A stretch of 64,000 nt of DNA from Spiroplasma endosymbiont of Cantharis nigra (GTDB lineage: Bacteria > Bacillota_I > Bacilli_A > Mycoplasmatales > Mycoplasmataceae): the NCBI RefSeq assembly GCF_964019925.1, contig NZ_OZ026470.1, positions 496,001 through 560,000 of the forward strand, written 5' to 3'. The position numbers and the translations under genes were made by a program. The stretch's first letter is position 1, and every line of letters starts with the position of its first letter. Positions 5,946 to 62,634 of this stretch are shown one piece after another. Below the pieces are notes generated by a model. That model saw only the letters and a program-made list of their open reading frames with translations. It had not been told where the DNA came from and ran no database searches.

Positions 5946-6566
5946 TTATTCTGCAGCAACTACAGTAATTTCTTTTGAACCAGTTAATAATGTTGATGCT
6001 TCAACTGCTTCAACTTTAAATGTATCTCCAGCAGTTAATGCCTCAGCATATGTTCCACCTTTTGCAGTATAAGTAATTTTGTAATCTGTAGTTTCTTTAG
6101 CATCTTTAGATAATTTTACTATTGCAGCTTTAATTGCATTATCAGCAGTGTCTTTATCCATATCTGCTGTAATTTTAATGTCTAAAGTATCTAAATTAAC
6201 TTTTGTTGCTGCTTTTTCAGCAATTTTAATAGTTTTTGTACCAGTTAATAATTTTGAATCTTTTGTTGCTGCAACTGTTATTTCAGTTCCATCAGCTAAA
6301 GCTTCTTCAGTTTCATCTTCATCAGCTCTTGTTGGTGCTTTTACAGAAATTGTATAATCTGTAGTTACCTTAGCATCTTTTACTTTAGCAGTAATTTGTT
6401 TTGCAATTGATTCTTTTGCTTCTGTTTCTGTTAATCCTGATTCAACACTTAATTCCATTTTTGCTAAATCAGTTTTATCATCAACTTTATCTCCACATGC
6501 AACAACAGTTGCACTTGTTGTAGCAACTAAACCAGCTGCTCCTAATAATCCTAATAATTTTTTCAT
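5946..6566 (-). CDS. Spiralin-like surface lipoprotein
   Basis: A 206-residue lipoprotein. The signal peptide MKKLLGLLGAAGLVATTSAT ends in lipobox VVAC with the lipidated Cys at residue 24. The mature part has two tandem domains of about 70 residues. Each contains a TTDY-x-I strand and ends with LLTGTKTI or LLTGSKEI. It has no Trp and no further Cys and is rich in Ala, Thr, Lys and Glu. This resembles spiralin, the abundant Spiroplasma surface lipoprotein; I infer homology from composition and layout. The start is set by AAAGGGAAA before ATG. A TATAAT-like -10 lies at 6603-6608 and a long-T terminator follows, so it is probably a single, strongly expressed gene. Confidence 0.85.
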   Translation of the reverse strand: MKKLLGLLGAAGLVATTSATVVACGDKVDDKTDLAKMELSVESGLTETEAKESIAKQITAKVKDAKVTTDYTISVKAPTRADEDETEEALADGTEITVAATKDSKLLTGTKTIKIAEKAATKVNLDTLDIKITADMDKDTADNAIKAAIVKLSKDAKETTDYKITYTAKGGTYAEALTAGDTFKVEAVEASTLLTGSKEITVVAAE

Positions 6567-6602
6567 TTTTTTCCCTTTCGTAGCCAATTAAGGCTTAACT
6601 AT

Positions 6603-35008: not shown

Positions 35009-38000
35009 CTAAATTAAGTCTTCTAAATCTAATTTAAGTTCACTAGTTTCTTCATCACTAATACTTACTTTTTTACTTTCATTAGATTCTCTTGATTCCT
35101 TGATCATTTCTTCTTGAAACTCTTCAGATATTATTTCTTCTTCAACTTCATCAAGAATTATTTCATCTTCAACTTCATCAAGAATTATTTCATCTTCAAC
35201 TTCATCAAGAATTATTTCATCTTCAACTTCATCAAGAATTATTTCATCTTCAACTTCATCAAGAATTATTTCATCTTCAACTTCATCAAGAATTATTTCA
35301 TCTTCAACTTCATCAAGAATTATTTCTTCTTCAACTTCATCAAAAATTACTGCATCTTCAACTTCATCAAGAACTATTTCATTTTCAACTTCATCAAGAA
35401 CTATTTCATTTTCAACTTCATCAAGAATTATTTCATCTTCAACTTCATCAAGAATTATTTCATCTTCAACTTCATCAAGAACTATTTCATTTTTAAGTTC
35501 ATTAAGGATTACTTCATCTTCAACTTTATCAAAAATTACTTCATCTTCAACTTCACTATTTAGATTTTTTGATTTTTCAATTTTATTAACCGCTGTTTTT
35601 TTAGCGGCTAACTGCTTTTTTACATTCACAACTTTCTTTGGTTCTTCATCATCTCCACCTTTTGGAGTTGGTGGTACATCATTATTATTAATAATGAATG
35701 ATTTTTCTAAAGTTGTTGTAATTATTTCAGCCATATCTAAATCTTCTGGTACATCTTCTAAGTCAGCAAATTTAAAGTTTTTAACATTTAATTGTATTAA
35801 ATTATCTTCTTCATCTAAAATATTTAAAATATCATTTGTTTGAATGTTATATAAGAATGTCGCAAATTCATCACGTTTTTTATTTCAAGGATATAATCTA
35901 ACTCCTCTTTTTGGTCTCGCCATAATTGGAACATGATCTTGCTTAATTTTTTTAACATTTCCTTTATTTGTAATGATTAAAACATCACCATTACCAAATG
36001 CTTTACCAGCAACAATATCTTCATCTTTTACTACAGTTGACTTAACTCCTTTTGCATTAGGACCTGCTGAAGGTATCTCAGCGATATCATATCTAACAGC
36101 AAAACCAGTTCTTGTTAACATTGTTGCAGATTTTGTTTTTGAAGTTACAAGTGAAGCTGATACAAGTTCATCTCCATTTTGTAATTTAATAATTCTAAAA
36201 GGTTTTGAAAACATTTTAGTTTCTAAATCTTCAACTGGTGTACGTTTTATCATTCCCTTTTTAGTTGCTAAAAGTATTTCTTGTTTTGCATTTTTAAATT
36301 GTTTAATAACAAATGCAGCAAGAATTCTTTCATTTCCAGAAATTGTTGCAACTTTATTTATATGCATTCCAATTTCTTTTCATTTACTTGGAATAATTTT
36401 ATAAACAGGAATTGAATAATATGTTCCTGCACTTGATACAAGTAAAATAAAATCTAAACTTGATGCTGGAACTTGTGAAATTCAAATATCATTTGGTTTA
36501 CGTTTGAAATCTTCCATTGAGTTTTTTCCCAATTGAGAATCTTCAATTGCTTTTAAATAACCGTCTTGTGAAATTCAAATTGTGTAGTCCTTTTGAACAA
36601 TTGTTTTTTTAATTTCAACTTCAATATTTTCAATTTCACTAACAACTTGACTTCTTCTTGGAACACCAAATTCTTTTTTAGTTGCTGTCAACTGTTCGAT
36701 TACTTTTTGATCAAGAACTTTAGCATCACCTAAAATTGCTTTATAACCATCAATTAAAGATGATAATTCTTTTTTCTCTTCTTCCAATTTAACAATATCA
36801 GTTGAAGTTAATCTATATAGTCTTAAATCAACAATTGCTATTGCTTGAGTCTCACTAAATTGATATTTTTCAATTAAGTTTAAAATCGCATCACTTCTAT
36901 TTGATGAATGTCTGATTATCTTAATAACTTCATCAAGAATTGAAATTGCTTTAATTAAACCTTCAATAATTTCTAATCTTTTTTGTGCTTTTTCTAAATC
37001 AAATTTAGTTTTTCTTGAAAAAATTTCTTTGTAATGCTTGATATAAGCAGTAATAATATCAATTATTCCTAACTGTTTTGGTTGTTTTTCAACAATAACA
37101 ACATTATTATAGTTATATGAAATTTGTAAAGGAGTATTTTTTAATAAAAATTTTCTTGTAATTTCATAATCAGCTTTAGGAGAAAGTTCAATTACAATTC
37201 TTAAACCAGTTCTATCAGTTTCATCACGAACTTCTTTTACTTCTAAATGAGGATTTGCATCAACAACATCTCCCATTTTTTTAACAAGATCTTGTTTAAT
37301 AATTTCATAAGGAATTTCATCAATAATAAGATTGTCACCTTCTCTATGAATTTTTGATTGAACAATTACTCTTCCTTTACCAGTTGCAAATGCAGAGTCA
37401 ATTCCTTCTTGACCCATAACAATTCCCCCTGTTGGAAAGTCTGGTCCTTTAACAATTTTTGAAATATCACTTAATTTTATTTTGGGGTTTTTAATAGTTG
37501 CAATAACTGCATCTATTATTTCAATACTATTATGAGGAGGCATATTTGTTGCATAACCAGCAGCAATTCCTGTAGCACCATTTACCAAGACATTTGGAAA
37601 ATATCCTGGCAAAACTGTTGGTTCTCTTTCAGAATCATCATAGTTTGGTGCAAAAAGAACTGTATTTTTTTGCAAATCAGCTAAAATAATACTTGATATT
37701 TTAGCAAGTCTTGTTTCAGTATAACGCATAGCAGCAGCACTATCTCCATCGATAGAACCATTATTACCGTGCATATCAACTAAAGGAATATTTAATTTTC
37801 ATGGTTGACTCATACGAACTAAAGCATCATAAACAGATGTATCTCCATGAGGGTGATATTTACCAATAACATCTCCAACCACACGAGCAGATTTTTTATA
37901 AGCTCTGTCATGAGTTAAATTTATTTCGTTCATTGTAAATAAAATACGTCTTTGTACTGGCTTTAAACCATCTCTTACATCAGGTAAGGCTCTTTCTTGA

Positions 38001-38092
38001 ATAATATACTTAGCATATCTTCCAAATCGATCGCCCATTAAGTCTTCAAGCGCGAAATTAATTATTCCTTTTTCTTCTTTATTATTTGACAT
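35009..38092 (-). CDS. parC: DNA topoisomerase IV subunit A with acidic repeat tail
   Basis: Breakage-rejoining subunit of topoisomerase IV, which decatenates chromosomes. The length is 1027 residues, well above the usual 800-900. The breakage domain has [26 protein letters not shown] and [11 protein letters not shown] with the active Tyr. GyrA-like C-terminal repeats follow (residues about 500-760). A linker of Pro/Lys-rich sequence leads to 17 tandem nonapeptides, mostly DEVEDEIIL, giving a very acidic tail (35099-35557). ParC is preferred over GyrA because of linkage to parE. The quinolone-pocket residue after HPHGD is Thr. Confidence 0.93.
35099..35557 (-). repeat. 17 x 27-bp tandem repeat in the parC 3' end
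   Basis: Seventeen in-frame 27-bp units encode variants of DEVEDEIIL. Six consecutive units (35153-35314) give identical peptides and nearly identical DNA; outer units are more diverged. Such an array should change length by slippage in steps of nine residues without breaking the frame. Confidence 0.95.
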
Positions 38093-45429: not shown

Positions 45430-46530
45430 CTATTTTCTTTTTTTATTTCATGCAAACTTTGGTTCCACATATTTTGGTTCTACAGCATCCTTTTCAAAGA
45501 TTTTATTATATTTAAGCTCATTTGTAAAAACCAAAGTTGGATCAGCTTTAGCATTAAATTTGCTAACTCCTGAATAATAATTAAAGTTCTTCTTATTTAA
45601 AACCAATTTTGTATTAAAAAATTCTATTAAGTCTCTTGAATAAACTGCATTTTCACAATGATTTTCATAGGCAATTTTTCTTATTTCAACAATATCATTT
45701 GCTGTTTTTACAGAATAAATTCACTTTAAATCTACTAAATAAACATCAAATAATAAATTAGCAAAATCCTCACGATATTTTTTATTTTCTCTTAATAATG
45801 GAATTGTATTTAAAAAATTGTCAAAGTGATTATTTCTTAAGAAAAATTCAATTTCATCAGCATAATTGATAATATCACCATCATCAATGCTATAAATTGC
45901 TTGACCCAATTTTTTAATAAACTCTTCATCATATCTAAAAGTTGTTTTTAAAACTTCTAGATATCTTTTATACTCTTCTTTTTCTTCTTCTTTAATTTTG
46001 ACATCTTTATATTCAAAATACTTTTCTCTTAACTGAGCCACAGCATTAATTCCCATAGTAGTTAAAATATCTCTTTTACTTAAGTTAGCTTTAAAAAACT
46101 TTTCATAGTGACTTCCAATACCAATTACTTTATCTGTTTTGAACTCTGCTGGCACTAAACTTACAATTGGGAAAATATAAGGATAAATACACTTAATTGA
46201 ATAATAAAATATTCTAGATTTTCATGCTTTGATAACTCCAAGAGATTTTAAAATTTTATTTAATTGTACTAATTCCTCTTCTTCAATAAAAAATAAGGCA
46301 TCAATTTGGAGATTCATTTCTTTATTTGCTAACTTTTTTGCAAATTTTGGATAATACTTTTCAAAACTCATATTTGATTCTAATCAAGAACCATTAAATA
46401 TCTTGTTTAGCTCTAAGATATCGTTTGCATCACTATATATACCTTGTTTTAAAATATGATCTTCACTTAATGTAAAAGTTTGTTTTCCTGGCTGAATAAA
46501 ATTCTTAGCTATAATTTTTTGTAATTTCAT
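45430..46530 (-). CDS. Hypothetical protein
   Basis: A 366-residue soluble, lysine- and phenylalanine-rich helical protein with no signal peptide. Family not recognised. The start MKLQKIIAKNF follows GGGAGAAAG. About 100 bases upstream lies a 20-bp palindrome-containing repeat that recurs upstream of the DUF4238 gene at 54721, suggesting shared control. It forms the left shoulder of the accessory island. Confidence 0.75.
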
Positions 46531-46631
46531 GTTTCTTTCTCCCATTAAGTTAGTTTCTTCTATTATATCAAATTTTAATAGGTTTTTAAAGGGGTTATTA
46601 ATAAGGAATATATAAAGTTTTAGAGCTGTAC

Positions 46632-46651
46632 TGTTCTTTTTTTCGAACACC
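46632..46651. promoter_or_regulatory. 20-bp repeat with palindromic core, copy 1
   Basis: TGTTCTTTTTTTCGAACACC; TGTTC and GAACA are complementary. On the minus strand it sits just after a TATAAAAATATA -10-like string, about 100 bases before the gene at 46530. An identical copy is at 54801-54820. It may be an operator, or a recombination (att-like) direct repeat. Confidence 0.6.
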
Positions 46652-46818: not shown

Positions 46819-47634
46819 TTAGAATAGTATTATTTTCGATTCAGGTAAAAAATCTTCCAGATATTCAAAAATATCATATAAATTATCTACACAATAAATA
46901 TTACTATTATTATCTATTTTTATTTTTATTTTAAATAATAGAAAGTTATTATCAATTAAAAATAGTTCATCTATTCATTCATCATAACTATCAATCTTTT
47001 TCCTTATTTGATTGAAATATGCTGGATAATAATTCCTTATTTCATTATTTAAATTAAATTTAAATATTTTTTTATCTCTAATTATATTTACAAAAATACT
47101 AAAAAGTAAAAAGTTTTCTTTATTTTTAGAATATTTATTTTTTAAAGAAAATGAACCTGATAATCTATTAATTTCAAATATGGAATTCTCAATTTTTAAT
47201 TTTAAACATAAAAGAAAATTGAGGATTTTAGAAAAATAACTTTCAAGCATATTTTGAAATAGTTTTAGGTTATTAAAAACTAATTTTAAATCTTCATAGA
47301 TTGATTGCACACTTTGACTAAAAGTATCATAAAAAATCTGTATTATACCTGATTTCAATAAATTAAGATTTTGATAACTTTCAAAAAAAATACAAATTAA
47401 GTCTAATATATATCTTGAATTTTTATTGTAATTTTGAAAGTATTTAATAACATCGAATTGTTTAACATTTTTTTGTAATTTCCTATATTTAAAATCAGAA
47501 AATCCTTTAAAATAAATATTTTTAATATTCTTTATTAAATTAATTTCCTTAAAAGCATTATTTATTTTTTTTAAATAACTATTAATATTCTCATTAGAAT
47601 AATTAAAATATTTAATATCTATTGAATTCTTCAT
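46819..47634 (-). CDS. Partner protein of the OLD nuclease, unknown
   Basis: A 271-residue helical, Asn/Lys/Phe-rich protein. Its ATG lies 23 bases inside the 3' end of the OLD-family gene, so it is translationally coupled and likely a functional partner. No signal or TM segment is certain. One TGA Trp near residue 220. It does not look like the UvrD-type helicase (GajB) of Gabija, nor any other OLD partner I know. Confidence 0.75.
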
Positions 47635-49456
47635 TAATATACTCCAATATTTTTGTAAAATTTTTTTTTGTTTTAATATTTCATGGGTATTCTTTTAAAT
47701 TAAAATCTTTGTTAATGAACTTAAGCAGCTGCTCCTTTTTCATTTTATTTTCAAAGAAAAGATCCTCAATTTCTTTTTTATTATTTTGCTTATAAAAATT
47801 TAATAAATTCATCCTTTTATAGTTTTTTTTAAATACAATATCGCCTGCATCATCATTGTCCAAAAGACAAATTACATTTTTATTAATTATTTTAATAATA
47901 TCATTAAAATATGGAACTTTAGAAGCACCCGCAGAATAAATAATATCAAATTCTAAATTAATGTTTAGAATCTCAGAAAAATAATGAAGGTATAAAAAAT
48001 CACTTTGACCCTCAACTATTAATATATTTTTCTTAAAGTTATATGTAGATATGCAAGCTCCCATACCTTTAATAATTGCTGGAATTGTAGACTCTAATTT
48101 TGAATTAGTATCTTTTACCGAATTTGATAACTCAATTTTACTACCTTCTTTATCTTTTTTTATTATATTGATTGAGAATAAACATTTAAAATCAAGCATA
48201 AAAACACTATGAGTAGAATAAATTATAGTTATGTTATTCCTTTTTAAAGTTAACTTAAAAAATTCATCCAATAGTTTTTTTTGTCTATCAATATGTAGAA
48301 AAGAATCGGGTTCATCAAGAATTATATAGCAATTTTGCTTATCTGATATATTTTCAACTTTATTTAATAATAACCTATAAAAAAAATTTTTTAATGTTCC
48401 TAAACTTTGATAAGAAAGCATATTCATATTATTCTTTGCAACAATTATACCAACTTTTAAATCATACTTATTTTCATTTTTTGATAAATATAAACATCAA
48501 TAATTATTATCGATATCTTCTGTATTTAATTTAATTTGTTCAGATAAAAATCTATTTATATTCTCTAGACTTTCATTAAAATTTATTTCCTGAATAACTT
48601 TTTCAATATTATTGGAATATGCTATTTCATTAATTAAATCAAAATTTGCTCCCTTTTCAATTTCCCTATTTTCATTTATTTTAGCTACCAAATTAGATAC
48701 TTTTTGATTATCAAATAAACTTGATATGTAATAGAATTTTGGAAAATTCAGTATTTTTTTGTACTCTAAAAAAAAATTCTCTATTAACTCAGTAAACTCA
48801 GTAAAACTTTCTTCAAAAGTTATTAAATTATCTTTATCTAAAAAAACATAGTTTGATATATTTTCTTTAACTTTATATACAGCAGTTTTAAGTGAATTAA
48901 CTAGATTTTTTTGTTCAATTAGAGTTTTATATTCTAAAGAATTTTTTTCTGAACTATTTTTTAAATTAATTGCACTTATTATTTGTTTTAAAGAAACATA
49001 TAAATTAGATTTTCCATATAAATCTATTTTATTAAATATATGATTAATTTTATTATCCATTTTTTTTGAAAATTTTAAAATAAATTTTAAGCTTTCATAT
49101 AAATTTAATAAATAAACTTTACTATTCTTAACTTTTATAATTACTGTATGAACTTCTATATTAGGTTTTTTTATTTTAAAATAAAAATCCACATCATAAT
49201 CTAAATCTAAAATATTTTCATTAAAATAAAAACTTTTATTTTTAATAAGGTGTTCAATTTGATCTTCATTTCTTTCATTTATATATTGAAAGTCTCTACT
49301 ATTCATTACCTTATTCAATAAATTTATGCACTCTAATAAATTTGTTTTACCAGCATTATTTTCTCCTACTATAGGAATTAACTTATTCTTTTTAATCAAA
49401 AAGTTTTGATTAAAAATTGATTTATATTTATTTATTTTAATCATGTCTAAGTCCAT
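47612..49456 (-). CDS. OLD-family ATPase/TOPRIM nuclease
   Basis: A 614-residue overcoming-lysogenization-defect (OLD) family protein: an SMC-like ABC ATPase with a C-terminal TOPRIM nuclease. Walker A is VGENNAGKTNLLE near residue 31, Walker B CYIILDEPDSFLH, and the His switch STHSVF. The TOPRIM Glu is in ILIVEGQSD (about 482) and the DxD in ICLLDNDDAGD. Such proteins act in phage defence (for example GajA). The start follows AAGGGAG; an internal Met 4 codons in is possible. It is coupled to the gene at 46819-47634. Confidence 0.87.
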
Positions 49457-49922: not shown

Positions 49923-52154
49923 TTAATAATCTCTTTGAGTATAAAGTGAAGTTAATGATGACGTGATTTGGTTTTTTGGATGCAAAATATAATTTTTCAA
50001 TTGGATTTTATTAGTCTTTTTAGCTTCAAATATAATTTTATAACCCTCATATAAAATAGTAAAGTCAAAATCCTTTGGTATCATTTTTTCAAAAGTTAGA
50101 GTATTGTCTTTCATATTAAATTCTGAGAATACTTTTTCTATTTCATCTTCACTTAATTTTATAGGTAGATTCAATAAATTTGAGAATTCAATCAATTCTT
50201 CTAAGTTTTTCTTGACTATTTCTACTTTTACGACTTTTTTATAACTTCAATTATTTATTGATGAGTTTATTTCAAGAGCTCTATTTTTATTTATTTCATC
50301 TTCTGAAAAAATAATTTGTATATCACAATTAGGATCTTTATGACTGTTTAAGGCAATTAAAGATGTTTTTATATTTAATAATGTTCTATAAATTTTTAAT
50401 ATAATTCATCTTCATATTGATAAATCATTTAAATCTTTTATTTCTTTAAATGACTTTATAAACAATAATAAATCATCATGTGATATATTATTTAGATTAA
50501 GTTTAATACATTCATTTGGATGTAAATATAATAATGTTGTTTGGTCTCTTTCATCTTTATTTTCATGAAGATTAGATATCATTAGCATAAGATAATTAAA
50601 ATTATGTGTTAAAATTATTATATTTTCATAGTAATCTCCTAATTTATTAAATAGAAAATCTCTGATTGAATGCTGTGTACTAATATCTAAAGTTGAAACT
50701 GGATCATCTAAAATTAAGTATTTCAATTGGTTTTGTAGAGAATAAAATTCAGTAACTTTTAGAAAAAATATTGCTAAGGCTAGCTTATGTTTTTGCCCCT
50801 CGCTTAATGTATTTAGTTTGCTACTATCAGATATTTTTAAACTTATCTTCCTTTGAGATGATTTTTTATCTGTTACTATTTGCATTTCCCTATCATAACC
50901 AAAAGTAATTAAGATTGAGTTTAATTTAGTTTGTAAGTCTTCGTTATATATTTCATATTCTTGATCTAACTCCCTTTCTCAATTTTTTTTAAGTGAATCC
51001 AATTTTTCCTGAATTATAATTGGACCATAATATTCCTTTAAATTCTTATTTAGAATATAATTCTTAACCTCATTAAGTTGACTTTGATCAGACTCTAAAA
51101 AGGAATCTTTTTTTATTTCCATATATGAATATTGAACTATTTCATTTTTTAAAATTTTATTTTTGAAATCTAAAAAATAATTCCTAATTTTTTCCAAACT
51201 TTCTTTAATTAATGGTAAATACTGAGTATAAATTTCTGACTTTATAAACTCATTACAGTTGCTAATTATTTCTTTTGATATTACAATTAAATATTTTTTA
51301 ACTTCAAGTATATCTGAACTTAAATTTTCTTTTCATATTTCCTTTTTCTTGCTAATATTTTCATTTTCACAAAAAAGACAATCATCAATATTTTCATGCA
51401 AATTTAAACCATCAGAAATTCATTTTTTATATTCTTCAATATATTCACTTTTAGAGAAACAATTTTCAGCATCTCTCATTCTATTTAAATTTTCTAAATA
51501 TAAACTAGTTTTTTCTTCAATTATTTTATTAATTGAAATATCAACATTTACAATATCATTCAAAATTTCATTTTCTTTAATAAAAATAAGAGTTTTTTGT
51601 ATATTTTCTTTTTCATTAATACTAATAATAGCAGCTTTTAATTGTTCATCATTCTTTATATCAGTTTTTAAATACTGAGTAATTTCTAAACCTAACATAT
51701 TATCGTCATATTTTTTTTCATAGTTATAATTGAAATTATAATTACTACTAATATCCAAATATAATAAATCTGAATTTTGTAAGCAATTATTCTCATTAAA
51801 AACTTGAGTTAATTTATTTTTTACTTGGCCCATTTTTTCTTTATTTTCTTTTAAGTTTTCTTCCAATTTTATCAATTTCTTTTTTAATTCAATTTCTTTT
51901 TCATCAATAAGTATTCTTGTTAAACCATCTTTTGTACTTGAGTCATCTTTAATGCCATCTTTATCTACAATAAATAAATTTTTATTTATAAAATCAACAT
52001 TAAATACGAATGATTCCTTCAATTCTGTTTTAGCCACTCTTGAAAGTGTAGTTTTTCCAACACCATTTCCACCATATATATATGTATTTTTTTTACTAAT
52101 ATCTATAGAATGTTCAACTTGATTTTTTTTATTTATAAATTTCAGTTTTTTCAT
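49923..52154 (-). CDS. AAA_13 (RloC/PrrC-like) ATPase with CxxC hook
   Basis: A 743-residue ABC-type ATPase of the AAA_13 class. Walker A is YGGNGVGKTTLS at residue 28, then a long coiled coil with CLFC (Cys 259 and 262) at its apex, like the zinc hook of RloC. The second coil is followed by signature LSEGQKHKLA, Walker B LILDDPVSTLD and LTHNFNYL. The last 200 residues would be the effector; I cannot find a clear Arg-Glu-His anticodon nuclease triad. RloC and PrrC cut tRNA during phage infection. Two TGA Trp join the parts. The ATPase class is secure, the anticodon nuclease role is not. Confidence 0.78.
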
Positions 52155-53015: not shown

Positions 53016-53303
53016 TTAGTATGTTCATTTTTGCCCCTTCATTGACTTATATTTTTGTGTAAAATCTTTTGTTCCTTTTTCTCTATTACAATCATAATGA
53101 GTAGCAACTCAATTACTACGAACTCCATTTGACTTATTGCCATCTAAATGGTCAACATTTCATCCATTTTTTGGATTCATATCCGAATTTCATTTAGTGC
53201 CATGATTCATTTTTTCTTTACATAGATAACACATTCTATATTGCTTTGAATTTAAATTATCAAATGCAATTGCATTTTCTCAAGCATAATAAAATTTATT
53301 CAT
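53016..53303 (-). CDS. Small HNH endonuclease
   Basis: A 95-residue HNH nuclease. The motif residues are visible: CYLCKEKM, then NVDHLDGNKSNGVRSN and THYDCNREKGTK, that is, two Cys pairs around DHxxG...N...H..CN. The ATG follows AAGGAAGG. Several Trp are TGA. Such short free-standing HNH proteins occur in phages and mobile islands. It lies between a transposase wreck and the DUF4238 gene. Confidence 0.85.
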
Positions 53304-53539: not shown

Positions 53540-54721
53540 TTATAAACCTAAATTTTCAATTCTATAAATATTATTTTCCTTCATTGTTTTTCTTGCCTTT
53601 TTAAAATCCTCTTTATTCTCAAAAATTAAATATCTTGATGTCTGAGAAAGATTCATTGCATTAATTAAATTAACTTGATTTGAATTTTCTAATTTGTATA
53701 CTTCAAATTCATATTTATCATTATTTGAATAAAAAGTATCATAGATTTCCAGAAATGAGGCGTTTGGGTTTTTTTTAATATGTATCTGAATATCATCATT
53801 TATTTTTTTACCATATTCATATTCAACTTTATTATTTTTTAAAAATAAGTTTGGAAATACTTTAATTCAAAATGAATTATAGACATGATTTGTTACTTTT
53901 ACATGATCAAATAAATCCAAAGGCATATAAGCTAAAGCGAGTTTTGGATTAATTATTTTTATCATTAATATAGGTAATCTAAATTTTTTACTATTATTAT
54001 CACCAAAATATTCTACAAGCATTGCATCTGTTAATAGAAATCTCTCGTTTATAGCATCAGGGATAGATATGAATTTTGTATTAGCTTTATATATATCCAA
54101 AATATTTGTTGCTATTCTATCTTTTAAATCTTCATTATAAGGTTGTTTAAAAATTTCATCAAAATCATTTTTTTCTTCTATATATTTTTGGATTTTATTA
54201 ATTTTATTTTCAATTCTTAAAATCATTTCCTCATTAAACATACTTATATTATTTTTACTATAATTATAAATATTAGTAACTAAATAATTTAACTCACTTA
54301 AATACTCCTCTTTTATTTGCTCAAAAGTTTTATTTTTATAATAATTATTATATTGAATACCTCCTTCTAAATTTAATGCTCTTTCAAGAGCTGCATTTGA
54401 TCTGTAAATATCAATTAAAGTATACAGTCTTAAAAATTTTGTTTGATATCTGTTTAAAGAAATAATCTGCTTATTTTCAATAAGTTTTAAAATATTTTGA
54501 TATTCCACCTCAATTTTAGTTAATTTATTTTCTATTTCATTTATTTTCATTTTTCTAGATTCATAAAAATTTTTAATATGAAATGGATCATTATTATAAT
54601 TTCTAATGTTATATTGCTTATAAATATTGTTTTCCAAATCATAAGTTGTATAGAAATCTTTATCAGATCATTTCTTTAAGATAAACCTAGGTATAAAATG
54701 TTGTCTGTATTTTATTTTCAT
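53540..54721 (-). CDS. DUF4238 family protein
   Basis: A 393-residue protein. The N terminus MKIKYRQHFIPRFILKKWSD matches the DUF4238 opening (HHYVPxFxLRxF). The remaining helical body and a beta-rich C terminus (LDLFDHVKVTNHVYNSF and onward) are typical of that uncharacterised family. The start at 54721 follows AAGGGGAAAA; a downstream Met would drop the HFIPRF motif. Two TGA Trp. The 20-bp palindromic repeat lies 80 bases upstream. Confidence 0.82.
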
Positions 54722-56293: not shown

Positions 56294-57004
56294 TTATTTT
56301 ATTTTAATGAAATAAGTTTTACCTGTTAATTTAAGATTAAAATATTTTTCTAAATCATTTTGAAAAAATTTAGAAGTTTTGCTATTCTTTGAACCATAAT
56401 TTTTTGGATTAAAATCTCTTATTTCCTTATACAGACTTTCAATTACTTGAGAAAAACGAACATAACCATCTTCTTCATTTAAATCATTTATTATAGACTT
56501 AACAGTTTCAACTAAATCATGTATTGGTTCTTTATCTTGATAGTTCTTACTTTCATTTTGAGCTTCATAAATTTTATCCACACTAATAAATCTATCGCAC
56601 AATTTTTTATAATTATCATTTGTATTAAAATTTCCTGCTCCAATTACTAATTTATTTTTCTCCTTTAGTTTTTTAAGAATTGGAGCAAAATCTAGATCAT
56701 TTGTTGCTAAGCAGAAGCAGTTAATATAATCTTTATTTGCAATATCCATTACTTCTAACGCAATTCTTATATCTACTGCATTTTTTGCTTCAGAAAATGA
56801 AGGCTCCATAATAATTGATGTAAATCCATACTTTAAACTTTTTTCATTTAACTTTAAATCATTAAAGTTTGAGTAAAATAATGAATTATTTAAAATATTA
56901 CCATATTCTTTAAGCTCATTAAAAAGTATTTTCAAATACTTATCTTGATTAAAATTATCAAAGTCAATTATTAAAGCTATTTTATTTTGATTACCTATAT
57001 CCAT
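56294..57004 (-). CDS. NYN-domain ribonuclease with C-terminal LOTUS/OST-HTH-like domain
   Basis: A 236-residue protein. Residues 8-150 form a NYN (PIN-like, LabA/DUF88) domain: acidic site in ALIIDFDNFN, then NAVDIRIALEVMDIA and CLATNDLDFAPIL. Residues about 155-236 look like a LOTUS/OST-HTH RNA-binding domain (EEDGYVRFSQV, FNPKNYGSKNSKTSKFF, YFNLKLTGKTYFIKI). The pair is known in bacteria and in animal RNA silencers such as MARF1. An RNase role is likely; the target is unknown. The start is set by AAGGGAAAA. No TGA codons are needed. It is downstream of the two-TM and viperin genes. Confidence 0.8.
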   Translation of the reverse strand: MDIGNQNKIALIIDFDNFNQDKYLKILFNELKEYGNILNNSLFYSNFNDLKLNEKSLKYGFTSIIMEPSFSEAKNAVDIRIALEVMDIANKDYINCFCLATNDLDFAPILKKLKEKNKLVIGAGNFNTNDNYKKLCDRFISVDKIYEAQNESKNYQDKEPIHDLVETVKSIINDLNEEDGYVRFSQVIESLYKEIRDFNPKNYGSKNSKTSKFFQNDLEKYFNLKLTGKTYFIKIK

Positions 57005-57622: not shown

Positions 57623-58510
57623 CTAAAAAATATCTAAAAAGTTAAAAGTTTTTAAATTTAAACAATCTTTTTTTACAATATCTATCATTTTTTTATTAAA
57701 ATTTTTATTATTCATTTTTCTCATACTAAAAAGACCTGGAATTACTGATATTGTATTTATTAATCTATTTTCACTAGTATGAAATTCATCTAAATTATCT
57801 AGATCATTATATCTATCAATTTTTTTATAGAAAGTAATAATAGTATCATTTTTTGAATTTTCTAATTTATATTTCCTTTTAGTATTTAGAAATTCTGATA
57901 AATCATTAAATACAACATTTTCATGCTTATTATTAAAAAATTTAACCTTTACTTTACAATAAATTTTATTAGTCTTCTCTTCTAAAAATAATTCCATATA
58001 TGAGATTTCTATTTCTTGCTTTAAAACTCTAAACTTTATAGTATTATTTACTTTTAAATTTTTTTGAAAATACTCTTCATTAATCATTTCATCAATAATA
58101 TTTAAATTGTCACTAAAAATCAAATCATTTTTTACAAATAAATTTTTTATGGGAATGAAGAAAGCATTAATATTTACATTTAATATCTCTATGCCTTTTA
58201 TTGAATTTTTTTTATAAAAATCAGTTCAATTGAATAACAATAATTTTTGATAATTTTTCTGATAATTTATTTTTCTAAAATTTTTAAGTATTTCTTTATT
58301 AATAAAAAATGACATTACAAATAAGATTAGAAATAAAAATAATCCAAGTAAATAAATAATATTAAAGTTAAGAAAAGTAAATGTTATAAAAAAAATAATT
58401 AAAACAAGTAATGAAAAAACACCAGATATAATTAAAATTAAAATCATATCATTTTCGTGATTGAGTTTAAAGTCTTTATAATTAATTTCATTAGATTCAT
58501 TTTTAATCAT
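57623..58510 (-). CDS. Two-TM protein with cytoplasmic domain
   Basis: A 295-residue protein with two adjacent membrane helices (about residues 24-47 and 52-70) and a 225-residue, lysine-rich, mixed alpha/beta cytoplasmic part. No family is recognised. The start follows GGGGGAAAG. One TGA Trp at residue 95. It follows the viperin gene by 249 bases and precedes NYN-LOTUS. Two-helix membrane proteins are frequent effectors in antiviral loci; applying that here is conjecture. Confidence 0.72.
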
Positions 58511-58759: not shown

Positions 58760-59629
58760 TTATTTTTCATTTTTATAACGTTCTATTTGTGATAGGATAT
58801 TGAAATCACATTTATTAAATTCGTCTATAGGAACAACTTTCTCTTCTAATAAACTTTTAATATTTTTCTTATCATAAATTTGATCTGAATTATAAAAGTA
58901 TCCTTCACCATCTATCATTACATAACTTGATTTAATAGTTTCTTCATCTTCAATAGATTTTATAAAGTTAGTTTTTTCAAATAATTTATTAATTTTTAAA
59001 AAATTATCAAACTCTTTTTTTGTAATAATAAAATTCTTATGTGATTCCTGCCCAACTGAGCTTACTTGCATAATTTTTCATTTACTTGGCTTTACTTTAT
59101 TTATAAAGTCAATCATTTTTGATTCCTTATTTAATGAGTGCACAACTGAGTTTATTTTTAAGCTACATCCTGCTTTTTTTATTTTCTTTGCAATTTCTAA
59201 ATATTCCTTTTCAGAAAGTGAATTTCTATTGTTAATTGCCCTTCCAGATTCTTGATTGATATTGTCACTTATAGAGTCCATACTTATACCAACACTATCA
59301 AAATATTGAAGCAAATCATTTACATCATCTTGTGATTTTTTTAAAATTATACTTCCATTAGTAATTAGTGTAACATCTAAATTTATTTTTTTTGATAACT
59401 TTGCCATTTCCTTTAATTGATCTCAAAAAAGAGTTGGTTCACCACCAGCAAAATTTATAGCTTTAAAAAAATCTACTTTATTTATAATTCTTAATCAATT
59501 TTCTAAATTATTTTTATAATTTGCTTTTGCAATTAGAGGCGCATAAAAGCAAAATTTACATCTCATATTACAAAACATACTAAAATGAAAATTCAGTTTT
59601 ATATTTTGCAAGTCACTAATTTTATACAT
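58760..59629 (-). CDS. Prokaryotic viperin (radical SAM, ddhNTP synthase)
   Basis: A 289-residue radical SAM protein. The N terminus NIKLNFHFSMFCNMRCKFCF carries the CX3CX2C cluster motif (Cys 20, 24, 27); NFAGGEP at 59-65 binds SAM. Beyond this it follows the viperin pattern rather than MoaA: ISMDSISDNINQESGR, LKINSVVHSLNKE, KPSKWKIMQVSSVGQES, ITKKEFDNFL and SSYVMIDGEGYF. Prokaryotic viperins turn NTPs into 3'-deoxy-3',4'-didehydro-NTPs that stop phage RNA polymerase. The start follows AAGGGGA. Trp codons include TGA. A position within a probable defence island supports the call. The nucleotide made is not predictable. Confidence 0.87.
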
Positions 59630-59904
59630 ATATTAAAATTCCCCTTAAATTTTTAATATTTTATCACATTTAATTAGTACATTTTTATTAAGTTTTTATA
59701 TTCAGAAAATTTAAATCCTAATAAATTTAAATAAAAATTTTGGATAAGCGGTAGTTTTTAACAATTCTATTAAAATAAATTATTAAAAATAAATTAAAAT
59801 ATACAGTATTTAAAAGAAATTAATATAAATTATTAATTATTTATAAAAATTAATTTTATAAAAGAGATAAGACAATAGAATTAATAATGTGCAATAAAAT
59901 AGTA

Positions 59905-60210
59905 CTATTTATTGCATTTCTTATGCACTGCTTTAAGATTTTCCTTTTGATTTGTACCACCTTGTGCTTTGGGATTTAAATGCTTGACATTTCAGCAATT
60001 TTAATTATTAGGTTGTCATCCTTGATATGCACCATATTCCATTTGTTCCTTACATCTACTAAAGCATTTTTTATGACCTCTATCGCTAGTATCTTGTTGT
60101 GCTCCGCAATTGCATTTTGGTACATTCTCTCAGGAATGTCTTGCAGTTATTGGTAAATCTTTTTTTGCCTTTTCTTTATTTCATTGTTCTACAATATTAT
60201 TATATAAAAA
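59905..60210 (-). pseudogene. Broken HNH endonuclease fragment
   Basis: The frame reads NNIVEQWNKEKAKKDLPITA, then PKCNCGAQQ, GHKKCFSRCKEQMEYGAYQGWQPNN, an in-frame TAA, then NCWNVKHLNPKAQGG and NLKAVHKKCNK. The second half is an HNH core (WNVxHLxPxxxGG...N...VHxxCN) with Lys where Asp is usual. There is no start codon. It is a remnant at the right edge of the island. Confidence 0.65.
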
Positions 60211-60469: not shown

Positions 60470-60961
60470 TTATTCATGGATTGCCTCTTGTTTAGCTCAT
60501 TTTTGAATTTCCAACATATACTCTTTTGTATTATTATTTAAAGTTTCTTCCTTTTGTCATCCTTCAATATATTCATCAAAGTAGTCGGTATTAACTATAG
60601 TATAAGTTTCTTCTGATATTTTTGATTCTAAAGTTTCATATTTTAATTGCAACATTTTATAAGATGTAAAAGCTCTTATAAAAGCTTCATATATTCTGCT
60701 TTTTTGTCAAGAATCACTATTTAATTGTATTAATTCTTCTTGTTCTTTATTACATTCATTACATTCATCAAGTTCTTTTTTTCAAATTTCATCCACTTGA
60801 CTTTTTTCAGAACGATATTTATCTAAAGCTTCTACAATATCATCTCCAGATTTTGGTTGATCTGGTAATTCAAGTTTTTTCTCACTTTGACATGATATAA
60901 CAGATGTTGAAGTTGAAGCAAATAAAGTTATTGCTGTAAATAAAGTTAATAATTTTCTCAT
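60470..60961 (-). CDS. Small lipoprotein, tandem family copy A
   Basis: A 163-residue lipoprotein: signal MRKLLTLFTAITLFASTSTS and lipobox VISC (Cys 24). The mature protein is acidic and helical, with a CxxC (ELDECNEC) at about residues 67-70 and a strongly conserved end (EYMLEIQKWAKQEAIHE). It is the most 3' of four tandem paralogues and the most diverged in the middle. The start follows GGAGAAA. Function unknown; a surface-variable family is likely. Confidence 0.85.
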
Positions 60962-61027
60962 AATTTCTCCTTTTAAATGAATTAATAAATATAGAATTAT
61001 GTATGAATTAAATTACTATTTTTCTTT

Positions 61028-61518
61028 TTATTCATGGATTGCCTCTTGTTTAGCTCATTTTTGAATTTCCAACATATACTCTTTTGTATTATTATTTAAA
61101 GTTTCATCCTTTTGTTTTGATGCAATAAATTCATCAAAAGTATTTGTTTGTCCTCTAAAGTAAGTCACTTTTGAAACTTTTGAGCTCAAAGATTCATAGT
61201 CTAATTGCAACATTTTATAAGATTTAAAAGCTCTTATAAATGTTTCATATACTCTACTTTTCTGTCAAGATTCACTATTTAATTGTATTAATTTTTCTTG
61301 TTCTTTACTACATTCATTACATTCATCAAGTTCTTTTGCTCAAATTGCGTTCATTTTTTCTTGTTCCAAAACATAGTTATCTAATGCATCTACAATATCA
61401 TCTCCAGATTTTGATTGATTTGGTAATTCAAATTTTTTCTCACTTTGACATGATATAACAGATGTTGAAGTTGAAGCAAATAAAGTTATTGCTGTAAATA
61501 AAGTTAATAATTTTTCAT
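61028..61518 (-). pseudogene. Small lipoprotein, copy B, frameshifted at codon 3
   Basis: Same family as its neighbours, but the A run after the ATG is one base short (ATGAAAAATTATTAA), which stops translation after four codons. The RBS is also changed, GGAGAAA to GGATAAA. The remaining 160 codons are intact (CQSEKKFELPNQSKSGDD to EAIHE), so the loss is recent or reversible by slippage in the A run. Confidence 0.85.
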
Positions 61519-61584
61519 AATTTATCCTTTTAAATGAGTTAATAAATATAGAATTATGTATAAATTAAATTACTATTTTTCTTT

Positions 61585-62076
61585 TTATTCATGGATTGCT
61601 TCTTGCTTAGCTCATTTTTGAATTTCTAACATATACTCTTTTGTATTATTATTTAAGGTTTCATCCTTTTGTCACCCTTCAATAAATATATCAAAACCTT
61701 CTGTTTCAATTCTAGAATAAGTTCCACTTGATATTTTTGAATTTAAATATTCATAATCTAATTGCAACATTTTATAAGATTCATAAGCTCTTATAAATGT
61801 TTCATATATTCAACTTTTCTGTCAAGATTCACTATTTAATTTTATTTTATTTTGTTCTTCTTTACTACATTCCTTACATTCATCAAGTTCTTTTGCTCAA
61901 ATTGCGTTCATTTTTTCTTGTTCCAAAACATAGTTATCTAAAGCCTCTACAATATCATCTCCAGATTTTGGTTGATTTGGTAATTCAAATTTTTTCTCAC
62001 TTTGACATGATATAACAGATGTTGAAGTTGAAGCAAATAAAGTTATTCCTGTAAATAAAGTTAATAATTTTTTCAT
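61585..62076 (-). CDS. Small lipoprotein, tandem family copy C
   Basis: A 163-residue lipoprotein: signal MKKLLTLFTGITLFASTSTS, lipobox VISC. It has the CxxC ELDECKEC and the conserved C-terminal helix. The middle (residues about 100-135, YESYKMLQLDYEYLNSKISSGTYSRIETEGFDIF) differs from the other copies. RBS GGAGAAA. Function unknown. Confidence 0.87.
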
Positions 62077-62142
62077 AATTTCTCCTTTTAAATGAATTAA
62101 TAAATATAGAATTATGTATAAATTAAATTACTATTTTTCTTT

Positions 62143-62634
62143 TTATTCATGGATTGCTTCTTGTTTAGCTCATTTTTGAATTTCTAACATATACTCTTTT
62201 GTATTATTATTTAAGGTTTCATCGTTTTGTCACCCTTCAATAAATATATCAAAGAAATCTGTATTTACTATAGAATATGTTCTTTCTAATATTTTTGATT
62301 CCAGAGTTTCATATTTCAATTGCAACATTTTATAAGATAAATAAGCTCTAATAAACGCTTCATATATTTTGCTTTTTTGTCAAGCATCACTATTTAATTT
62401 TATTTTATTTTGTTCTTCTTTACTACATTCCTTACATTCATCCAGCTCTTTTGCTCAAATCGTATTCACTTTCTCTTGTTCTAAAAGATACTTATCTAAT
62501 GCTTCTACAATATCATCTCCAGATTTTGGTTGATCTGGTAATTCAAATTTTTTCTCACTTTGACATGATATAACAGATGTTGAAGTTGAAGCAAATAAAG
62601 TTATTGCTGTAAATAAAGTTAATAATTTTTTCAT
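62143..62634 (-). CDS. Small lipoprotein, tandem family copy D
   Basis: A 163-residue lipoprotein and first copy in the array. Signal and lipobox are as in copy C, with ELDECKEC and the identical last 30 residues. The middle resembles copy A (KYETLESKI...TYSIVNTD), which suggests exchange between units. RBS GGAGAAA. It lies directly downstream of the large surface protein gene. Confidence 0.87.

Follow-up and report, generated by a model that had tools for sequence, protein, structure and literature searches.

A predicted viperin gene in the genome of a Spiroplasma

An open reading frame in the genome of the Spiroplasma endosymbiont of Cantharis nigra (G000) very probably encodes a genuine and functional-looking prokaryotic viperin; we put the probability of this reading at roughly 0.85. 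It lies on the minus strand at 58760..59629 of the 64,000-nucleotide stretch that we analysed, referred to here as the window (C1:496001-560000 of a genome of 1.24 Mb in one contig). The original prediction had also called this reading frame a viperin, and profile, phylogeny and predicted structure all agree on that, none of them favoring MoaA or QueE. The naming is no discovery in itself because automatic annotation with the NF038283 model would already name the gene. What is new is a member of the family in an unusual host.

That the host is a Mollicute, as predicted, is borne out by hallmarks that point to Spiroplasma, i.e. a spiralin-domain lipoprotein (5946-6587; PF05215, 1.4e-21), a set of MreB proteins (five strong matches in the genome, a sixth and weaker one probably being DnaK) and genetic code 4. 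Elsewhere the window encodes a ParC/GyrA-like topoisomerase subunit (35009-38092) whose long, acidic tail is built from repeats of EVEDEIILD.

The gene and its relationship to known viperins

The gene begins with ATG and encodes 289 amino acids, its coordinates agreeing with those given originally. The frame is open only under code 4, in which TGA is read as tryptophan. All three tryptophan codons are TGA (counted from the start codon, Trp45 at 59495..59497, Trp69 at 59423..59425 and Trp184 at 59078..59080, all on the minus strand), the last lying within SKWKIMQV and aligning with mouse W246. The tryptophan codons of the two closest relatives are likewise all TGA, and the G+C content of the gene (23.2%) equals that of the window, which together suggest a long residence in an A+T-rich genome using code 4. 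A Shine-Dalgarno-like AAGGGG precedes the start codon (59641..59646, minus strand). Scans for a promoter or terminator around the gene, including the upstream promoter, gave no signal exceeding that of shuffled sequences.

The protein scores 228.3 bits against NF038283 (viperin family antiviral radical SAM protein, an equivalog model with a cut-off of 180 bits; E = 9.9e-68). In PADLOC it matches best the pVip model that covers viperins without an associated kinase (4.7e-62), and the top nine matches in a sequence search of the PDB are all viperins. The segments singled out originally (NFHF, CNMRCKFCF, SMDS, KINSVV, WKIMQV and SYVMID) are all present. The radical SAM motif CxxxCxxC (C20, C24 and C27; 59549..59572, minus strand), the predicted ligands of the [4Fe-4S] cluster, sits in the context NxHF...CNMRCKFCF. 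In an alignment of 56 viperins N13, H15, C20, N21, C24, C27 and G62-G63-E64-P65 are invariant, as are N91, S116, N160, K185, E227 and Y236; every one of these is kept in the window protein, and its K158 is nearly invariant in the set.

The protein is 27% identical to mouse viperin (RSAD2) and lacks its N-terminal extension, while sharing the cluster motif and the fold (Z = 31.6 for the model against PDB 6q2p/5vsl). From the alignment, with the mouse numbering based on the chain offset of 5vsl, we take N13, H15, R130, K158, N160, K185 and Y236 to be the equivalents of mouse N77, H79, R194, K220, N222, K247 and Y302. The position of mouse K120 is occupied by alanine (A57), as it is in nine of the 56 viperins. 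Y236 (58922..58924, minus strand) corresponds to the conserved active-site tyrosine of the family, to which a role in proton and electron transfer has been ascribed (PMC9642334, PMC8124187).

An AlphaFold2 model generated with the 56-row alignment has a mean pLDDT of 94.9 and a pTM of 0.92. The first thirty matches to it in a Foldseek search of the PDB are all viperins. Structural alignment (VIA-align) gave Z scores of 25.7-32.3 for viperins, compared with 21.8 for the next fold (SuiB) and 18.8 for MoaA, so that among radical SAM folds it is the viperins that the model resembles most. When outgroups were included in the tree, the window protein fell within the viperins (64 rows, SH-aLRT 89, the outgroup branches being long), apart from MoaA; QueE of E. 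coli lies outside the viperin set on a very long branch. In a tree of viperins alone the window protein is sister to that of another Spiroplasma genome, G183 (99/83), followed by that of G182 (100/100), and the group of three is nested in a bacterial set of 21 (98/96).

These comparisons covered the possibility, raised at the outset, that the protein would group with MoaA, QueE or another radical SAM family, and no such grouping was found. It is highly improbable that the protein is an enzyme of another kind (MoaA, QueE, an NrdG-type activase or a peptide maturase) merely resembling viperin, since its matches to the moaA and QueE equivalog models (TIGR02666, 52.6 bits; TIGR03963, 27.3 bits), weak like those to all radical SAM profiles, are far below cut-offs of 284 and 260 bits while the viperin score exceeds its own. 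Although it has its fold in common with those families, structure and tree place the protein with the viperins, and its sequence has no second, C-terminal cysteine cluster like that of MoaA.

The gene thus resembles the known prokaryotic viperins (pVips; SAND; NF038283 / PADLOC PDLC02903, non-kinase type) in profile, motifs, fold, length and defence-type neighbourhood. It differs from them in its use of code 4, in its wall-less host and in being solitary, and its product is a prediction. Some viperins are linked to a nucleotide kinase, either fused (Lacinutrix, L049) or adjacent (the Anabaena plasmid pANACY.03). By contrast, the window gene shares the viperin domain with these but has no nucleotide kinase fused to it or beside it.

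Genomic setting and distribution

The gene stands at the edge of a hypervariable island of defence type, and we infer from its surroundings here and in its relatives that it behaves as mobile defence genes do. The sister genome G193 is syntenic with G000 across tens of kilobases, with protein identities mostly of 85-99%, and yet the two differ wholesale between a conserved gene (45430-46650) and an array of lipoprotein genes starting at 60470. The intervening genes described here are all on the minus strand. Directly upstream of the viperin is a decayed gene of small HNH-endonuclease type (59911..60111), with a stop in frame, that matches an HNH protein of G193 (tblastn, 6.5e-9). Downstream is a gene whose product has a hydrophobic N-terminal part (57623..58510), of which a 93% identical copy is kept beside the viperin relic of G193. 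Beyond it the variable island contains genes for an NYN-domain protein with a weak OST-HTH match (56294..57004; PF01936, 1.9e-20), a DUF4238 protein (53540..54721; PF14022, 7.4e-16) and a small HNH-type protein (53016..53303; PF13392, 0.006, which is under the cut-off). These are followed by two candidate defence genes, encoding an AAA_13 ATPase (49923..52154; PF13166, 1.4e-15; PADLOC PDC-S06, 2.7e-8) and an OLD/GajA-like ATPase with a TOPRIM domain (47612..49456; PADLOC Old 1.5e-15 and GajA 1.8e-13; PF20469), the latter overlapped by a gene with no family match (46819..47634). The lipoprotein array itself (60470-62634) consists of near-identical genes for 163-aa proteins, and is further expanded in G193.

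The other two intact viperin genes of the genus lie in different surroundings. That of G183 directly follows a stretch of defence-type genes (D12 methyltransferase, HNH nuclease, DndC, HATPase and Z1 helicase), together with a nuclease-type gene of the DUF4420 family, while that of G182 is beside a 2-hydroxycarboxylate transporter gene with a UvrD-like helicase nearby. Within about 50 kb around these two viperins, no gene other than the viperin is more than 50% identical to any gene of the G000 region compared. Small HNH-type genes recur: members of this family are found within 10 kb of the viperin in all four viperin-bearing genomes of the genus (one of them a relic) and in only 3 of the 16 without viperin (Fisher 0.007, the association having been noticed post hoc). 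The family also adjoins a viperin relic in G278, and is usually upstream of the viperin on the same strand (besides the decayed window gene at 59911-60111, L032:3132-3497, L033:17848-18219, L034:7670-7927 and L040:3688-3960).

Viperin in Mollicutes is rare, not unique. Intact copies are present in 7 of 320 genomes of the order, six over the NF038283 cut-off and that of G238 slightly under it (175 bits). Three are in the genus (G000, G183 and G182, the last two being 72% and 55% identical to the window protein) and four in another family (G229, G230, G238 and G279). More copies occur in metagenome-assembled genomes (MAGs) on the Acholeplasma and Anaeroplasma side; contig searches recovered copies with an alignment as query and gave no matches with a single protein. 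The viperins of the phylum are about 25-72% identical to that of the window, have different neighbours and do not form one clade at phylum level. In AU tests a single origin of the viperins of the order was not rejected (p = 0.06), whereas a single origin together with those of the Acholeplasma side was (7.7e-5), so viperins seem to have entered the phylum on more than one occasion. With respect to the statement in the original prediction that no description of a viperin from a wall-less, reduced-genome lineage was known, searches of the open literature likewise found no paper naming a Mollicute viperin, where absence is no proof; the window copy is, all the same, one of seven intact ones in the order.

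Phage and plasmid records contained only distant viperins, none from Mollicutes. Two viral contigs (L137 and L138) encode distant full-length viperin-like proteins of 30% identity (E = 6e-27 and 2e-24), the viral contigs otherwise giving many weak radical SAM matches. On a plasmid of Treponema saccharophilum a viperin gene (L130:2986-3801) follows genes for a cysteine desulfurase and a PEP/pyruvate-binding dikinase on the same strand. One uncultured relative has three clustered radical SAM genes that are weakly viperin-like (G281:C31:1535-5825; L233).

A possible link to a helicase and AAA+ operon

In G230, which like G238 is an uncultured relative, the viperin gene is the last of a same-strand run (L035:112-10142) that encodes an SF1 helicase, proteins of 667 and 319 aa and a ClpB-like AAA+ protein. 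The helicase is MkoA-like (4e-52), the AAA+ protein matches PDC-M37B (2e-32) and the viperin starts 45 nt after it. In G238 (L038) the viperin comes first, followed by homologs of the helicase, the 319-aa protein and the AAA+ protein, with frames that are broken in that MAG. The viperins of G230 and G238 are not sisters in the viperin tree. In G182 a decayed C-terminal stretch of an AAA+ gene (L033:9616-11295), 55% identical to the AAA+ protein of G230 across 265 aa, ends one codon ahead of the viperin start. Operons of the same kind are present in G000 (875-895 kb; L231:6938-16576, about 882-892 kb) and G183, where a gene for a 198-aa, NrdG-like member of the radical SAM enzymes comes last. 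The partners found with viperin in G230 and G238 are thus like those of the PADLOC PDC-M37 or Mokosh-like helicase operons, and they are absent around the window gene.

We note that this link is an incidental, post hoc observation. It suggests the possibility, which we hold tentatively and at well under even odds, that the Mycoplasmatales might have a five-gene system whose radical SAM component is exchangeable, being viperin in G230, in G238 and, ancestrally, in G182, and an NrdG-like protein in ordinary Spiroplasma. The window viperin would then be a detached module of it. A related and somewhat more doubtful reading is that the window gene is a leftover of such an operon whose product would normally act together with it. 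The arrangements in G230, G238 and G182 and the NrdG-like version in Spiroplasma would fit this, but neither the window viperin nor that of G183 has such neighbours, and in the 6 kb or so around some 60 further bacterial viperins no helicase or AAA+ genes of this kind were found, apart from one gene beside the Lacinutrix viperin. That gene was considered as an operon partner and dropped, being ClpV-like.

Function and maintenance in the host

By analogy with its family, the window protein would cleave SAM at the [4Fe-4S] cluster, and the resulting 5'-deoxyadenosyl radical would attack the ribose of a nucleoside triphosphate. The conserved tyrosine would then aid completion of the dehydration to give a 3'-deoxy-3',4'-didehydro-NTP (ddhNTP), which would terminate RNA chains synthesized during virus infection. 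Both formation of a ddhNTP and phage defence by the window viperin are predicted on these grounds. The enzyme would draw on the NTP pool of the host, since no nucleotide kinase is attached, and CTP is our default guess for the substrate.

The means to run this chemistry appear to be in place in G000. The genome encodes SAM synthetase (MetK), CTP synthase (PyrG) and other radical SAM enzymes (RlmN, a HemN-type protein, NrdD with an NrdG-like partner and a second NrdG-like protein), and SufB/SufD-type genes are present in all 20 genomes of the genus, so that the cell is equipped to supply SAM and CTP, to assemble clusters and to carry out radical SAM reactions. As a candidate electron donor, a classical flavodoxin was not found in G000, and was found only in G183. 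Spiroplasma viruses are not known to use a polymerase other than that of the host, which would make the target of a viperin in Spiroplasma less obvious. No single-subunit polymerase of the phage (T7) type was seen in 60 genomes of the family, in a search that gave no positive control match either. Bacterial viperins yield ddhCTP, ddhUTP or ddhGTP, and inhibition of T7 RNA polymerase is possible in E. coli (PMC9642334, PMC10732462).

The fold might alternatively have been turned to another job, acting on a different nucleotide or in regulation or metabolism instead of antiviral defence. Other substrates and metabolic roles are reported for family members (PMC9642334, PMC8124187), and the alanine at the mouse K120 position might hint at a change, but the same alanine recurs among the other viperins, as described above. 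The patchy occurrence, mobility and defence-type neighbours suit defence better than housekeeping, and we regard an altered role as unlikely.

In the sister genome G193 the viperin at the same site is broken, with the first cluster cysteine changed, a stop within GGEP, a frameshift and a deletion. The gene is therefore dispensable, and could be a recent acquisition heading for loss and already out of use in the window strain, for which the lack of a promoter signal beyond shuffles might also be taken to speak. Against this, the window gene is full length with every invariant residue kept. Since the split, moreover, the G193 branch has accumulated 14 nonsynonymous changes and a stop against 3 synonymous changes, compared with 3 of each kind on the G000 branch, which are too few to prove constraint. 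Between G000 and G183 dN/dS is about 0.15, with dS near saturation, which indicates that the intact viperins of these two genomes are under purifying selection. Impending loss is therefore a quite improbable account, and the viperin looks to be maintained in G000.

If the window gene is the viperin that it appears to be, an antiviral family of nucleotide-poisoning enzymes that humans also have extends to wall-less bacteria with reduced genomes and recoded TGA. It makes testable which ddhNTP such a cell would produce and tolerate. The link to the helicase and AAA+ operon, if true, would mean that viperin has partners beyond nucleotide kinases.
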